DNA from: Adhaeribacter terrigena
Lineage (GTDB): Bacteria; Bacteroidota; Bacteroidia; Cytophagales; Hymenobacteraceae
NCBI RefSeq assembly: GCF_016623615.1
Contig: NZ_JAEHFX010000004.1
Location: forward strand, 1-64,000
Direction: 5' to 3'
Length of the DNA: 64,000 bases
Positions 67-32,291 of the stretch are shown piece by piece. The notes under the pieces were generated by a model. It was not told where the DNA came from. It ran no database searches and saw only the letters and a program-made list of their open reading frames with translations. Each line of letters begins with the position of its first letter. Position 1 is the stretch's first letter. The position numbers and the translations under genes are program-made.

Positions 67-120
67 CTATAACGTACTTGGCTATGCGGCGGCGAAGCTG
101 CCGTATAGGTGTGGTTAGGT
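67..120. other. attC site A
   Basis: Imperfect palindrome beginning CTATAAC (67-73) and ending GTTAGGT (114-120). The inner part, from GGCTATGCGGCGG to GTATAGGTGTGGTTAG, is nearly the same as in sites D, G and I. It separates the partial cassette from cassette 1. Confidence 0.85.
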
Positions 121-1017: not shown

Positions 1018-1083
1018 ACCTAACGTTTAGTATAAATGGTGAACGAGGCAAAGCCGAAGTTTAATTTTTATACCTTGTTGTAT
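1018..1083. other. attC site B
   Basis: Begins ACCTAAC (1018-1024), ends GTTGTAT (1077-1083). Arms GTATAAA and TTTATAC flank an inner GGCAAAGCC. It belongs to a second attC subfamily, with E and J, marked by a CTTG-type end rather than GGTGTGG. Confidence 0.82.
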
Positions 1084-1489: not shown

Positions 1490-1620
1490 ATACAACGTCT
1501 CTGCTTTGCGGCGGGCGGGAAAATTTCTTGCATAACAGTTCCTGCCGCCCGCAGCTTGCAGAAAGTTAAACAATTTACACCTGGCACCAAAACCCGCCTG
1601 GCGTAAAGCTTTGGTTAGGC
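1490..1620. other. attC site C (oversized, possibly composite)
   Basis: Begins ATACAAC (1490-1496) and ends GTTAGGC (1614-1620), 131 bp, about twice the length of its neighbours. It contains a GC-rich hairpin (GCGGCGGGCGG against CCGCCCGC) that already closes at a second core-like box GTTAAAC (1565-1571). A smaller hairpin (CCAAA...TTTGG) follows up to the last core. It may be two attC sites joined by loss of the cassette between them. Confidence 0.7.
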
Positions 1621-2054: not shown

Positions 2055-2107
2055 GCCTAACGGCTGGGCTATACGGCGGCGAAGCTGGCGTATAGGTGTG
2101 GTTAGCG
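2055..2107. other. attC site D
   Basis: Begins GCCTAAC (2055-2061), ends GTTAGCG (2101-2107). The centre GGCTATACGGCGG...GTATAGGTGTGGTTAG matches sites A, G and I with a few changes. Confidence 0.85.
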
Positions 2108-2746: not shown

Positions 2747-2759
2747 TTCTTGTAATTAT

Positions 2760-2823
2760 GGCTAACGTTTAGTATTTGCAAAGCCTGCAGCGTAGCAAAG
2801 GTTTTGTAAATACCTTGTTATGA
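2760..2823. other. attC site E
   Basis: Begins GGCTAAC (2760-2766), ends GTTATGA (2817-2823). Inner arms GTATTTGCAAAGCCTGC and GCAAAGGTTTTGTAAATAC pair imperfectly. The end box GTTATGA departs from the canonical GTTRRRY but is matched exactly by TCATAAC at 3495. Confidence 0.82.
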
Positions 2824-2839
2824 GCGGTTATTTTCGTTT

Positions 2840-3494: not shown

Positions 3495-3563
3495 TCATAA
3501 CGGTTAGGTATAAACAACGTGCTAGGCCGTCGGCCGTAGCATGTTGTTTATACAGTGTTAGCC
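3495..3563. other. attC site F
   Basis: Begins TCATAAC (3495-3501), ends GTTAGCC (3557-3563). The arms GTATAAACAACGTGCTA and TAGCATGTTGTTTATAC form a long near-perfect stem around GGCCGTCGGCC. Confidence 0.85.
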
Positions 3564-4377: not shown

Positions 4378-4431
4378 GGCTAACGTGCTAGGCTATGCGG
4401 CGGCGAAGCTGCCGTATAGGTGTGGTTAGCG
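4378..4431. other. attC site G
   Basis: Begins GGCTAAC (4378-4384), ends GTTAGCG (4425-4431). The internal part is essentially the same as in site A. Confidence 0.86.
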
Positions 4432-5033: not shown

Positions 5034-5086
5034 CGCTAACGTACGTGGCTAAGGCACGTTTTAATGTGCTTTAGGTGTGGTTAAGC
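5034..5086. other. attC site H
   Basis: Begins CGCTAAC (5034-5040), ends GTTAAGC (5080-5086). A divergent, AT-rich centre (GGCTAAGGCACGTTTTAATG) keeps the common GGTGTGGTTA end. Confidence 0.83.
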
Positions 5087-5698: not shown

Positions 5699-5752
5699 GC
5701 TTAACGGATTAGGCTATGCGGCGGCGGAGCTGCCGTATAGGTGTGGTTAGCC
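5699..5752. other. attC site I
   Basis: Begins GCTTAAC (5699-5705), ends GTTAGCC (5746-5752). Centre as in A and G with one A-to-G change (GGCGGAGC). Confidence 0.86.
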
Positions 5753-5764
5753 TAAGTAATTCTT

Positions 5765-6637
5765 TTATTTTCCAGAATTTTCTTTATCGTGATTTATGGT
5801 TTCACGAAGCTTTCCGTTAATGTCGTAATACCTCCAAATGCCTACTTTTTTTCCCATTGAATAATTTCCTTCATATTTTTTTACTCCTGTTTCATAGTAA
5901 GCTTCTCCTTTCCCATTAGTAAGACCGTCTTGATATTCGGTAATTTCCCATAGTTTCCCATTAGGATGCCAAAAAGTAGCTTTCCCTTCTTCCTTGTCAT
6001 TTACAAAACGGCCTTCTGCCTTTTTCTGACCATTTGGGTGCCAATGTTTCCAGATACCTACTCTTTTATCCATTTCATAAGTACCTTCGTGCTTTTTGAC
6101 ACCTGTATCATAGAAAGTTTCGATTTTCCCATTAGCAAGGCCGTTTTTATTTTCAGTTGTCTCCTTAATCTTGCCATTTGGGTACCAAATAATAACCTTT
6201 CCGTCTTGTTCGCCATTCAGAAAATTCCCTTCTGACTTTTTCGGACCTTCAGGATACCATATGGTAGAAGGACCATTTCTTAAACCATTCTTAAATTGAG
6301 AAACCTGCTGTTTGTTTCCATTATCATAATATGCCCAAGTTTCCCCTTCTTGTTTACCATTTATAAAAGTTCCATTACCTGCTAATTTGCCATTTTCATG
6401 ATAAAGTTTAAACTCACCATCTTGTACACCATTTTTGAAATAAGCTTCAGTTTTCTTTTTGCCATTTTTATGAAAGTATGTTACTAATCCTTCAAACTGG
6501 CCATTTATAATTGTTCCTTTTGATTCAATTTCACCTGTATCATAATAGTTAACCACTTCTTGGGAAGATTGAGCTGTACAGCTACCAAAAGAAACAAAGA
6601 AAAAGAAGGGAAGAGTAATTCTTAAAAATTTAAACAT
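5765..6637 (-). CDS. cassette 9: YwqK/MORN-repeat lipoprotein
   Basis: 290 residues from the chosen ATG at 6637; an upstream in-frame ATG at 6715 lies inside the attC site and adds residues that are not signal-like, so it is rejected. Leader MFKFLRITLPFFFF with lipobox FGSC. The mature protein is almost wholly made of about eleven repeats of some 22-24 residues, each G..EG....Y..NGK.K.EG.F.NG, as in the YwqK antitoxin/MORN-variant family. Expected fold is an extended beta-sheet exposed on the envelope. Whether it is an immunity factor for a toxin is unknown; no toxin gene lies beside it. Confidence 0.8.
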   Translation of the reverse strand: MFKFLRITLPFFFFVSFGSCTAQSSQEVVNYYDTGEIESKGTIINGQFEGLVTYFHKNGKKKTEAYFKNGVQDGEFKLYHENGKLAGNGTFINGKQEGETWAYYDNGNKQQVSQFKNGLRNGPSTIWYPEGPKKSEGNFLNGEQDGKVIIWYPNGKIKETTENKNGLANGKIETFYDTGVKKHEGTYEMDKRVGIWKHWHPNGQKKAEGRFVNDKEEGKATFWHPNGKLWEITEYQDGLTNGKGEAYYETGVKKYEGNYSMGKKVGIWRYYDINGKLRETINHDKENSGK

Positions 6638-6658
6638 TGATAAATAGATTTTTATTTG

Positions 6659-6725
6659 GGCTAACGGACTTGTGTATGATGTGAGTGAGGCGGAGCCGAA
6701 ACTTAAATTATACACTTGGTTGGGC
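6659..6725. other. attC site J
   Basis: Begins GGCTAAC (6659-6665), ends GTTGGGC (6719-6725). Arms GTGTATGATGTGAGT and AAATTATACAC surround GGCGGAGCC; same subfamily as B. Confidence 0.84.
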
Positions 6726-7345: not shown

Positions 7346-7397
7346 GCCCAACGGTTGGGCTAAAAAACGTTTTAATGATTTTTAGCTTTTGTTGTAG
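7346..7397. other. attC site K
   Basis: Begins GCCCAAC (7346-7352), ends GTTGTAG (7391-7397), inner arms GCTAAAAAACG and CTTTTTAGC (read as GCTAAAAA..TTTTTAGC). It overlaps the last codons and stop of cassette 11. On the minus strand it is very close to the attC at 32240-32291. Confidence 0.85.
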
Positions 7398-7806
7398 TAT
7401 CGTTATTTTTATTCCAGATTTCTTGCATCAAAGGGGTAATTCTAAATCCTTCAGTTGCCGGATCTTCATTTTCCCCACCTTCATATAAACCCCAATAAAA
7501 AATTGTGTATTCGTGAATTTTGAAATCTTTTATTAATAATTCAGATATTTCTTTCCAGTAATATTCAAGTTCACTATTAGTTGTTTCTTCATCTAAGGCA
7601 TATAAAATGCCCTGCATTAAGACAAATTTTTCATCATCGCTTTGTAGGTTTTTATATTCTTGAAGACAATCCTTTATGTTAATTTCTTGGGAAATTTCTA
7701 ATGGCCAATCCTGCATCCATTCTTCATATCTCCAATTTAATTTTGAAATTATTCCATCTGCTGCTTGACGTGTGATGTATCTTGGATTAGGTCCTTTTTT
7801 CTCCAT
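7372..7806 (-). CDS. cassette 11: cytosolic acidic protein of unknown function
   Basis: 144 residues, no signal peptide, helical and acidic with many Trp/Tyr (LNWRYEEWMQDWPLEIS, YWKEISELLIKDFKIHEYT). The core site GTTGTAG (7391) falls inside the coding region, so the last residues (TKAKNH) and the stop are encoded by the attC site itself. This is the first cassette in the direction of transcription, the position nearest to the expected attI. Function not recognised. Confidence 0.68.
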   Translation of the reverse strand: MEKKGPNPRYITRQAADGIISKLNWRYEEWMQDWPLEISQEINIKDCLQEYKNLQSDDEKFVLMQGILYALDEETTNSELEYYWKEISELLIKDFKIHEYTIFYWGLYEGGENEDPATEGFRITPLMQEIWNKNNDTTTKAKNH

Positions 7807-7818
7807 AATTTTAATGCA

Positions 7819-7860
7819 CTACAACTACTGTATATCCGTAGGAACTACGGTTATCCCCGC
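7819..7860 (-). other. attI-like element at the head of the array
   Basis: On the minus strand this reads GCGGGGATAA, a 6-bp stem hairpin CCGTAG-TTC-CTACGG, then ATATACAGTA joined to core GTTGTAG. The same arrangement with another stem sequence precedes the solitary cassette at 31667. A second TATATCTGTAGG at 7861-7872 imitates TATATCCGTAGG at 7830-7841. It occupies the place of attI, or is the remnant attC of a lost cassette. Confidence 0.55.
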
Positions 7861-8273
7861 TATATCTGTAGGTTATTTGACCGGCTTTTTAACCAAAATC
7901 GATGCCTTTGAGGAAATAGCTTTTGTTTCGTTTATAATTCAAGATAATAAATATTCAGAAAACGGCAATTTTTTCCTGTGTTTAAAATTCTGATATCCGT
8001 TGTTTGGTTAAAACTGCTCCTCTAATACGAATAATCGGGTTAGCGGTGCCGCCTTTTGTCAGTAAATGGTAAGTTTGAAAGAAGCCTAAGCGTTCTTCTT
8101 GCCATGCCTTCCTGATTCCAGAGCTGGCCGATTTATAAAACGGTTTCTTTTTACGCTATAAAAACACCATTTCAATTCTGGAACACCACTTTATCCGTGT
8201 TTATATCCGTTTATAAACGGATATAAACACGGATAGACATATCGTAAAACGTTAGTCTTACAACTCCAAAAAC
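7861..8273. other. gene-free spacer with a perfect palindrome
   Basis: About 410 bp with no convincing coding frame on either strand. It lies where an integron integrase would be expected but encodes no recombinase fragment I can see. It holds a core-like GTTAGCG at 8039 without a partner and the 44-bp palindrome at 8192-8235. Confidence 0.6.
8192..8235. repeat. perfect 44-bp palindrome
   Basis: Left arm TATCCGTGTTTATATCCGTT TA is followed directly by its exact reverse complement, centre between 8213 and 8214, with no loop. Such uninterrupted palindromes are rarely stable in bacteria. It lies 38 bp past the stop of the EcsC-family gene and could terminate it. Confidence 0.85.
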
Positions 8274-12289: not shown

Positions 12290-12478
12290 AACGATGTTCG
12301 GCGTAGCCAATTAAAGAATTATCAGAATCAACAAATAGAATTTGCTGTAAGGATTTCTTTGTAATAGCACTTCTTGAGGGGGCCCTTTCACATTATTGTT
12401 TGAACACGATTTTCAGGATTGAAGAGATTATAAGGATTAAGAAGGCAGGATTTAATAAACAAGATTTCACACGCCTAT

Positions 12479-12696
12479 CGCCAGCGCAGCGTACCCTGAA
12501 AATTACGTTATCCGGAAAACTAAACTAAAAAGACGCGAGCTACGAAGGGAAGCTGACACTAGTTTCTGTGAGAGCGGCCTCCAAGACTTCCGGTGCCACA
12601 GGCAGCCCGCAAGGGCAGGAAGGGTTGCAGCCGCGAACGCAGAAATCGGAGATTCAGCGTAGCTAAATGAAGCCACCCGGCTGGAGGGAGAAAGCT
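12479..12696. repeat. structured dispersed repeat, copy 1
   Basis: From GCCAGCGCAGCGTA to GAGGGAGAAAGCT. It is alignable end to end with 26301-26496. The conserved blocks are the two ends, the branched fold (12563-12645) and GAAGCCACCCGGC just after it. Confidence 0.8.
12563..12645 (+). ncRNA. candidate structured RNA or hairpin element, copy 1
   Basis: Predicted fold: outer stem TTTCTGTG (12563-12570) with CGCAGAAA (12638-12645); GCGGC (12574-12578) with GCCGC (12630-12634); CTTCC (12587-12591) with GGAAG (12618-12622); then two side hairpins TGCC-ACA-GGCA (12594-12604) and GCCC-GCAA-GGGC (12605-12616). Strand is arbitrary. Copy 2 keeps all pairings with compensatory changes. Expression is not shown. 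Confidence 0.55.
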
Positions 12697-12875
12697 TAAT
12701 TGAAAGCAAAAGGGAATTAGGTAAAAAAGAAGCAAGCTATAAAAACGATATGCTTTCAAGCTCAAAAACTCATTAATAAACTTTCTTATTAACTTAAATA
12801 GATCTCTCCTTTCGTCGAAATGACGATAAAAAAACGGTATCCCTTTGCACTTAAAAACTGCTTTAAAACAACCCA

Positions 12876-26050: not shown

Positions 26051-26243
26051 TAAAAAATTGGCAGAATTGACCTTGTCTAAATAGCTAAATCAGCTACTTT
26101 TATCAGATAACGTAGTTAACCACCCCCAGCCCCTCCTTGGTAAGGAGGGGAGCTGCTGCACCGCTTCCATTGAGTTTTGGAGCTTAAAAGCATAGCGTTT
26201 CAGGTTCCTTGGTTTGAGGATTAATTTCTGAAATTAAAGTTGG

Positions 26244-26288
26244 CAACCAACAGCTCCCCTCCTTTTCAAGGAAGGGAGCTGTTGGTTG
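26244..26288. repeat. 21-bp-stem hairpin
   Basis: CAACCAACAGCTCCC... (26244-26264) pairs with ...GGGAGCTGTTGGTTG (26268-26288), three-base loop TTC, one mismatch. A shorter relative lies about 115 bp upstream. Confidence 0.85.
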
Positions 26289-26300
26289 TTTCACGCATTC

Positions 26301-26496
26301 CGCCAGCGCAGCGTATCCTGAAGATCAAGGTCTGAAGGAAGCTAGAATAAAAAGAAGCAAGCCACAAAGGAGCATGATACCAGTTTCTGTGAGAGCGGCC
26401 TCCAAGCTTACCGGTGGCTTTAGCCAGCCCGGTAGGGCAGGTAAGGTTGCAGCCGCGAACGCAGAAACGAAGCCACCCGGCTTGAGGGAGAAAGCT
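26301..26496. repeat. structured dispersed repeat, copy 2
   Basis: From GCCAGCGCAGCGTA to GAGGGAGAAAGCT; partner of 12479-12696. Confidence 0.8.
26384..26467 (+). ncRNA. candidate structured RNA or hairpin element, copy 2
   Basis: Same fold as copy 1: TTTCTGTG (26384-26391)/CGCAGAAA (26460-26467); GCGGC (26395-26399)/GCCGC (26452-26456); CTTACC (26407-26412)/GGTAAG (26440-26445), one pair longer than in copy 1; TGGC-TTTA-GCCA (26415-26426), with a C-G to G-C swap; GCCC-GGTA-GGGC (26427-26438). Confidence 0.55.
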
Positions 26497-31551: not shown

Positions 31552-31633
31552 AAAGGATAGCGTTTTGCAGCTTTTATTTAAGTTGAATATTGTTACATTT
31601 GGACCGAAACATCCGTTTAGCCGGCTGTTGGTG

Positions 31634-31673
31634 GCGGGATAAGCCGAATATTCGGTATATACAGTAGTTATGC
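31634..31673 (+). other. attI-like element before the solitary cassette
   Basis: GCGGGATAAG, hairpin CCGAAT/ATTCGG without loop, then TATATACAGTA joined to core GTTATGC (31667-31673). It shares ends with the element at 7819-7860 but not the stem bases. Confidence 0.55.
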
Positions 31674-31683
31674 TTAATTGCGA

Positions 31684-31980
31684 ATGATGAAAGAAATTCC
31701 AGAAATAAAATTAGTAACAGTTCCAGAAACCGAAGAAGCAAAAAAAGCTGTAGGATATAAATGGAATGATGAAGCTGGGACACGGCACAAGCTTGGAGGA
31801 ATACCCGATAGATTATGCTTAGAAGAATACCCAAATTGTAAAGATTGTGGTCAAAGAATGACTTTCTATGCCCAAATCGATTCAATTGGTGACGATTATG
31901 ATTTAGCAGATACTTGCGCTATTCATGTTTTCGTTTGTTTTGACTGTTTTACAACAGAAAGTCAATTGAACCAAATCTGA
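31684..31980 (+). CDS. cassette protein with Cys-x2-Cys pair (DUF1963/YwqG-like, tentative)
   Basis: 98 residues (ATG at 31684 or 31687). The middle GTRHKLGGIPDRLCLEEYPNC with CKDCGQRMTFYAQIDSI and HVFVCFDCF forms two CxxC pairs, fitting a zinc ribbon, and the LGG.P...AQID arrangement recalls the DUF1963/YwqG family. Cytosolic, function unknown. Its TGA overlaps the next start (ATGA), so both genes are translated together. Confidence 0.7.
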   Translation: MMKEIPEIKLVTVPETEEAKKAVGYKWNDEAGTRHKLGGIPDRLCLEEYPNCKDCGQRMTFYAQIDSIGDDYDLADTCAIHVFVCFDCFTTESQLNQI

Positions 31981-32255
31981 TGAAAACAATTACTATCAAG
32001 CATGTTCAAATTTTTGAAAAGTATCTTGGAGACGATGATGGGTTTGCCCGTAGCGGAACAGGAAAAGAAAAGGAATATTTTCAAAAAGGAGAATGGGCAT
32101 TAATCGGAAACATCATACAAGATTTAGAGCTGATAGAAAATGGTCTTGCATCTAAAAAATATGAAGAAGAGATAAATAGAAACCTGCAGGAAGAACTTGA
32201 ATCAGATGCTATTGAAGCACTAAAAAGAAAAACAAAAAAGCATAACCAAAGCTAA
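31980..32255 (+). CDS. cassette protein of unknown function
   Basis: 91 residues, charged and helical, no signal peptide. Overlaps the upstream gene by one base. Resembles small partners of two-gene cassettes (toxin-antitoxin pairs are typical), but no named motif. Its stop codon lies inside the attC site, as for cassette 11. Confidence 0.68.
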   Translation: MKTITIKHVQIFEKYLGDDDGFARSGTGKEKEYFQKGEWALIGNIIQDLELIENGLASKKYEEEINRNLQEELESDAIEALKRKTKKHNQS

Positions 32256-32291
32256 AAACCATTAAAACGTTTTTTAGCCCAGCCGTTAAAC
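32240..32291 (+). other. attC of the solitary cassette
   Basis: GCATAAC (32240-32246), arms AGCTAAAAAC and GTTTTTTAGCC, end GTTAAAC (32285-32291). The centre AAAGCTAAAAA.CATTAAAA differs from site K (minus strand) at only a handful of bases. Confidence 0.86.

Follow-up and report, generated by a model that had tools for sequence, protein, structure and literature searches.

Dispersed attI-like elements at the head of gene cassettes in Adhaeribacter and related Hymenobacteraceae

Integrons are defined by the integrase IntI and have a single attI in cis beside the integrase gene. One attI per integron was also described in a study of Treponema integrons (PMC3607928). In IntegronFinder 2.0 the search for attI1 is no longer done by default and attI sites outside class 1 are undetected (PMC9024848), so attI of this kind at the head of an array would be missed. 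The only complete integron that a 2022 survey named from Bacteroidetes proper was that of Salinibacter ruber (PMC9024848). In the open-access literature we found no paper that pairs 'integron' with 'Rufibacter', and from titles and abstracts none of the 'Pontibacter' literature appears to concern a system of the kind described here.

We analysed an element that is very probably a docking site (attI) for mobile gene cassettes. It lies in a stretch of 64,000 nucleotides, the window (G000:C19:1-64000), of a genome of 4.43 Mb in 24 contigs from a species related to Adhaeribacter soli.

The element and its two loci in the window

The first-pass annotation placed the same attI-like element before both cassette loci of the window, and our searches confirmed it at 31636-31669 (+), where it precedes a lone cassette, and at 7857-7823 (-), where it precedes an array. 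The first cassette directly adjoins each of the two attI, and neither copy has an integrase nearby. The attI copies were searched with R1, a sequence-only profile built from 8 copies in the genome, and with a wider profile, R3. The attC sites were searched with R2, a covariance model from a hand-picked attC set; a plain R''/R' regular expression had found few of them. The features of the two loci are the following.

31594..31601, +, candidate -7 box of a predicted Bacteroidota-type cassette promoter (Pc), TACATTTG
31613..31624, +, type-2 upstream inverted box, CCGTTTAGCCGG, which repeats the core box GGATAA imperfectly and in inverted orientation
31636..31669, +, attI core of the lone-cassette locus, GGGATAAGCCGAATATTCGGTATATACAGTAGTT, class A stem (R1 E=1.5e-15, R3 E=2.0e-7)
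31639..31647, +, left arm of the 9-bp dyad, ATAAGCCGA, from the attI alignment
31652..31660, +, right arm of the 9-bp dyad, TCGGTATAT, from the attI alignment
31678..32255, +, lone (first and only) cassette; its two small ORFs (100 and 91 aa) match nothing in Pfam or NCBIfam
32240..32291, +, attC of the lone cassette (covariance model E=1.6e-10)
7858..7888, -, type-1 upstream part of attI, common to the integrase leader
7823..7857 (read 7857-7823), -, attI core heading the array, GGGATAACCGTAGTTCCTACGGATATACAGTAGTT, class B stem
7372..7806, -, gene of the first array cassette (144 aa), without a match in Pfam
7346..7397, -, attC 1 of the array (attC covariance model)
6659..6725, -, attC 2 (attC covariance model)
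5699..5752, -, attC 3 (attC covariance model)
5034..5086, -, attC 4 (attC covariance model)
4378..4431, -, attC 5 (attC covariance model)
3495..3563, -, attC 6 (attC covariance model)
2750..2830, -, attC-like site that separates two cassette genes, by eye; the model did not reach it
2055..2107, -, attC 8 (attC covariance model)
1490..1620, -, long attC-like site, weak (E=0.35)
1018..1083, -, attC-like site, weak (E=0.084)
67..120, -, last attC visible (attC covariance model); the array runs past the contig start

In the lone-cassette attI the crossover is expected between G31667 and T31668. The upstream inverted box of this copy matches at 8/12 positions, and that of 11 sister copies at 9-12/12 (perfect or near-perfect). 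The core at the head of the array (7823..7857, -) is identical to an integrase-linked attI at C21:1044-1091, and core and upstream part together (from 7888 on) give 66 bp that are 92% identical to the C21 locus.

Some further observations were made in the window. The cassette gene at 5765-6715 (-) encodes a MORN-repeat protein (PF07661), the sole cassette protein tested with a Pfam match. The sequence ATAGCGTTTT occurs at 18 places (e.g. 30622, 31557 and 32344) as compared to 0.35 expected, often near gene ends and in some cases within inverted repeats. A repeat of ~0.2 kb is found at 26130-26496, where it adjoins strong inverted repeats, and at 12470-12700; further copies, with 75-81% similarity, are present in A. 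soli (L069) and at ~141 kb of the same contig (L058).

The arms of the core form a dyad of nine pairs (ATAANCGTA/TACGNATAT). Over 70 attI sites these positions pair in 79.8% of cells as compared to 74.6% in shuffles (reached in 0/500), the covariation score is 0.164 against 0.085 in shuffles and at most 0.077 in slid controls, and after removal of duplicate arm combinations the pairing is still above 2000/2000 shuffles, all of these being statistics that ignore relatedness among the sites. Between the syntenic loci C19:120184 and C10:430603 of A. soli, the outer inverted repeat differs in both of its arms. All five inner pairs are formed at only 17/70 sites, and the single-strand folds are weak, one class C copy (-0.4 kcal/mol) being essentially unfolded; a stable single-strand hairpin was rejected on these energies. 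The proposal that the pairing is kept rather than the sequence thus holds for a dyad with covarying arms and fails for a stable hairpin. We read the dyad as a likely binding site for the recombinase, in which the arms may change in concert or the whole core may be replaced. Sequence-specific recognition of double-stranded attI alone does not predict covariation of the arms, and a folded attI is a possibility.

Copies, cassettes and recombinase in the genome and its relatives

The motif TATACAGTAGTT occurs 8 times in the source genome, as compared to 0 for the reversed control pattern, and all 8 copies read GATAA-stem-TATACAGTAGTT with three classes of stem (CCGAAT/ATTCGG, CCGTAG/CTACGG and ACGGAGTTATTACGG). 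Profile R1 found 13 attI copies and R3 one more, the 14th, at C17:37718. A degenerate 15th copy, recognised by eye, heads cassettes at C19:138.5-139.2 kb. With R2, 47 attC were detected at E<=0.01; their stem has compensatory changes in 5/7 predicted pairs (RNAalifold), and the sites show the R''/R' and L''/L' pairing with AAC...GTT that is expected of an integron. Every one of the 13 R1 copies has an attC downstream on the same strand within ~1.5 kb (usually 0.4-1.5 kb), for which the chance is ~0.3% per random oriented position. The attC downstream of the 14th copy is weak (E=0.5; 0.044 in another search). Clusters of attC with no visible head were found at contig ends of C2, C9 and C20, where the head would fall outside the contig. 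C19 and C21 likewise end within arrays. A genome-wide search, proposed to see whether each copy heads a cassette, revealed no source-genome copy away from cassettes.

An integrase is absent near 12/13 R1 copies. The source genome has 14 attI copies for one integrase, which departs from the one attI in cis of an integron. Arrays with at least two attC and no integrase nearby, which defines a CALIN, are present (e.g. C19:113677-115058 and C2:123802-124839), and loci with one attC, as at the lone cassette, lie below the default CALIN threshold.

The integrase-linked attI (C21:1044-1112, class B) lies ~120 bp after the stop of a gene for a 487-aa tyrosine recombinase that is transcribed toward the attI. 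Its crossover is placed at G^TT, with the junction taken from the point where the cassette sequences diverge. The protein matches PF00589 (E=2.8e-42), and the catalytic domain is intact with its motifs conserved in alignments. It falls below the cut-off for integron integrases (TIGR02249, 204 bits vs 265, with the match split) and slightly under that for archaeal-type XerA (NF040815, 215.5 vs 220). In alignment with VchIntIA (2a3v) the match is interrupted between chain residues 208 and 249, where ~40 IntI residues have no counterpart in the query, and the IntI-specific additional domain near patch III is absent. Because this insertion is absent the system is not an integron in the strict sense, although its anatomy is that of an integron. 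The recombinase has an N-terminal extension of ~200 aa, which in the A. soli relative was modelled as two tandem beta-beta-alpha-beta-beta-alpha repeats (mean pLDDT 82.5), and its fold is nearest to XerA, VchIntIA and XerH. A small gene of 125 aa with paired cysteines is divergent from the integrase (L005 2733-3110, C21). It was found upstream in 61/78 integrase loci, always on the opposite strand and at a median distance of 132 bp, and its product is possibly a partner or regulator of the integrase.

A relative of the recombinase was detected at E<=1e-60 in 70/200 genomes of the family (Hymenobacteraceae), with named members in Pontibacter, Rufibacter, Adhaeribacter, Sabulibacter and Botryobacter, and more distant relatives occur in Bacteroidales MAGs. 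At 78 named loci all of the 102 attC matches lie downstream of the integrase on the same strand, with none upstream or opposite. An attC is present at 39/51 integrase loci with at least 1 kb of downstream sequence, and in nearly all of the 31 loci read the attI core is found ~120-150 bp after the integrase stop. At a contig end less than 1 kb is left downstream of the integrase in 27/78 loci (e.g. L083, L085 and L110); contigs that end soon after the integrase would be expected if repeated attC break assemblies. Full-length integrase relatives were seen on plasmids only in Rufibacter tibetensis and Pontibacter kalidii (NZ_CP012644 and NZ_CP111080), and these plasmids are a possible vehicle between strains.

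Among genomes picked for few contigs, and not at random, 16 integrase-bearing ones have 2-19 attI each, whereas 10/12 integrase-free ones have zero, the exceptions being G008 and G028; the attC counts run parallel. One genome, G050, has two weak attI matches against 52 attC, mostly in large arrays, so dispersal is not universal. Many attC of G050 lie within ~20 kb beside the integrase. In six related genomes 36/41 attI have a same-strand attC downstream (median 523 bp) and 5/41 have none detectable. This tally took attC with E up to 1 and counted one palindrome, matched on both strands, a single time; each of the 73 attC kept has an attI upstream of it on its own strand. No integrase is present at 37/41 of these attI; it adjoins three, and a fragment is found at a fourth. 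Together with the counts in the source genome, this supports the first-pass suggestion of a primary attachment site that is not tied to an integrase gene.

Reading of the dispersed sites and alternatives to it

The element is probably the attI of an integron-like system of Bacteroidota, where one integrase (rarely more) would serve many attI sites over the genome. With less assurance we favour the broader reading as a genome-distributed integron, where a non-IntI recombinase in Bacteroidota would act in trans on at least a dozen promoter-linked attI modules (~50-100 bp) that are mobile or exchangeable, and many first cassettes would be expressed at once. The 487-aa XerA/IntI-like recombinase would recombine the attC of a cassette circle with the G^TT ending TATACAGTAG^TT, and each attI would gather its own short array. 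This supposes that the integrase catalyses the reactions in trans at dispersed attI, that the promoter-like boxes work at attI copies and that dispersed attI take up cassettes at present. The evidence from which we argue is that of sequence comparison, namely the anatomy of the sites, the linkage of attI, attC and integrase, the dispersal away from integrases, the cassette differences at syntenic attI and the similar cassettes at linked and unlinked attI.

Upstream stretches of ~40 to 165 bp are common to unrelated loci. The type 1 upstream part (CGTACATAGTG...) is found beside integrases and at some dispersed attI. The type 2 part has an inverted copy of the core box (CGTTTATCC...GGATAAACG, matching at 8-12/12 positions); it occurs only at dispersed sites in this genus (Adhaeribacter), often with a TGTTAYATTTG box at ~-75. 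The motif TA[AT]ATT[TCA]G was found in 20/66 upstream stretches as compared to 2.3 expected (mononucleotide shuffles, maximum 7), and TTG-N19-TAnATTTG in C21, C2:7587 and C2:125423. With such a promoter-like box ~60-140 bp upstream of some attI, the first cassette may be expressed there.

The dispersed attI could also be relics only, that is remains of integrons that lost the integrase, with frozen arrays (CALINs retaining attI). Loss of this kind is suggested at C2:7587, where the last integrase codons (SQLDTL*), a promoter-like box and the leader are retained over 165 bp alignable to the C21 locus; this points to an integrase lost there. C2:125423 has the same flanks as A. soli C8:526225, with attI and cassettes in the source genome and integrase, attI and array in A. 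soli, and the integrase gene was apparently lost or gained at this locus, which would be one route to an attI without integrase. Integrase fragments are kept at G1C10:211788 and L209. Two genomes of genus g3, G008 and G028, have 19 attI each and 31 and 16 attC with no integrase of the family, their recombinase relatives being of XerC/D size only; some of these attI may be relics, or may be used by a recombinase encoded elsewhere. However, for most dispersed copies the shared stretch is just 40-100 bp, and no trace of an integrase was seen up to 3 kb away. A tblastn search of the 3 kb upstream of dispersed attI found only two intact integrase genes and one pseudogene, the six codons at C2:7587 having been seen by eye beyond this result. 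None of the 31 loci read had the type 2 upstream part next to an integrase. In addition, the lack of attI in most integrase-free genomes fits a shared function better than slow decay.

The comparison with A. soli also goes against frozen arrays, and it gives the strongest sign of activity at attI without integrase. The two consecutive attI at C19:115504/120184 have the same neighbouring DNA on either side in both species (75-88% identical), and the two genomes share no cassette DNA there. At C3:15564 and A. soli C15:94860 a flank of 4.3 kb is shared up to 73-89 bp before the attI, and both the cassettes and the attI class differ between the species. The element had been called portable, and this is supported as a pattern by the syntenic loci with different attI classes and by the upstream stretches shared among unrelated loci. 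Cassettes are also common to linked and dispersed sites. The first cassettes of the integrase array (C21) and of the dispersed attI at C22:21508 are 89% identical over 388 of 396 bp, and a third copy (91%) is found at a dispersed A. soli attI. As shared cassettes are 86-91% identical and not identical, the movement was not necessarily recent. An empty site for the lone cassette was sought in A. soli via queA, but the upstream neighbour differs and no empty site could be read. Overall, we consider it unlikely that the dispersed attI are relics only.

The core has what we take to be a dif-like layout, with a left arm ending GATAA, a short spacer and an inverted right arm. This would suit the use of the attI and attC sites by host XerC/XerD and not by the 487-aa integrase, as would the attI arrays of G008 and G028, where only relatives of XerC/D size are present. 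Yet attI and attC are both absent from 10/12 relatives without the 487-aa integrase, while the fold is near-universal (14/14 control genomes), and attC arrays lie directly downstream of the 487-aa gene. We regard use by XerC/XerD as very improbable.

Cassette integration outside attI, at attG sites, has been reported (Loot et al. 2024, as relayed in PMC11023631 and PMC12444791), and the sequence common to our sites could accordingly be a loose integrase target at random secondary landing sites. The sites that we found have in common a specific ~48-bp element and 41-100 bp upstream of it, as beside the integrase, and not a short loose consensus; the attG-like reading was rejected as hardly credible. 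A short inverted repeat in many copies might also suggest a transposon end, a terminator or a regulatory repeat that has no relation to cassettes; this was rejected with near certainty, as all source-genome copies head cassettes and in relatives every tallied attC lies downstream of an attI.

Comparison with known systems

If the integron-like reading with dispersed attI is true, cassette capture has evolved or survived with a recombinase that is missed by IntI-based finders, and the platform is distributed around the genome, with cassettes entering, and first positions being expressed, at many places. Two questions would become testable, namely whether the IntI insertion is needed for recombination of folded attC, and whether attI can be free in trans from the integrase gene.

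The Salinibacter ruber integron (PMC9024848) belongs to the same broad phylum, but was found through IntI. Treponema-type integrons (PMC3607928) are alike in their unusual layout, with the integrase pointing toward attI; they differ from the present system in its non-IntI recombinase with a long N-terminal extension, its dispersed attI and the other phylum. The attG secondary sites (Loot et al. 2024, as described in PMC11023631 and PMC12444791) are similar in that cassettes are inserted away from the platform, whereas the target here is a conserved attI of ~48 bp and not a loose consensus. CALINs, the attC clusters without integrase of IntegronFinder (PMC9024848), likewise are arrays away from an integrase in the same genome, but each array here starts with an attI; possibly some CALINs had an attI of their own. 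With sedentary chromosomal integrons, such as Vibrio cholerae IntIA/attIA, the system has in common the R''/R' and L''/L' boxes of attC, the GTT crossover motif, one-directional arrays, an attI next to a tyrosine recombinase and a promoter-like box before the first cassette. It differs from them in a recombinase without the IntI-specific insertion and in up to 19 dispersed attI per genome.
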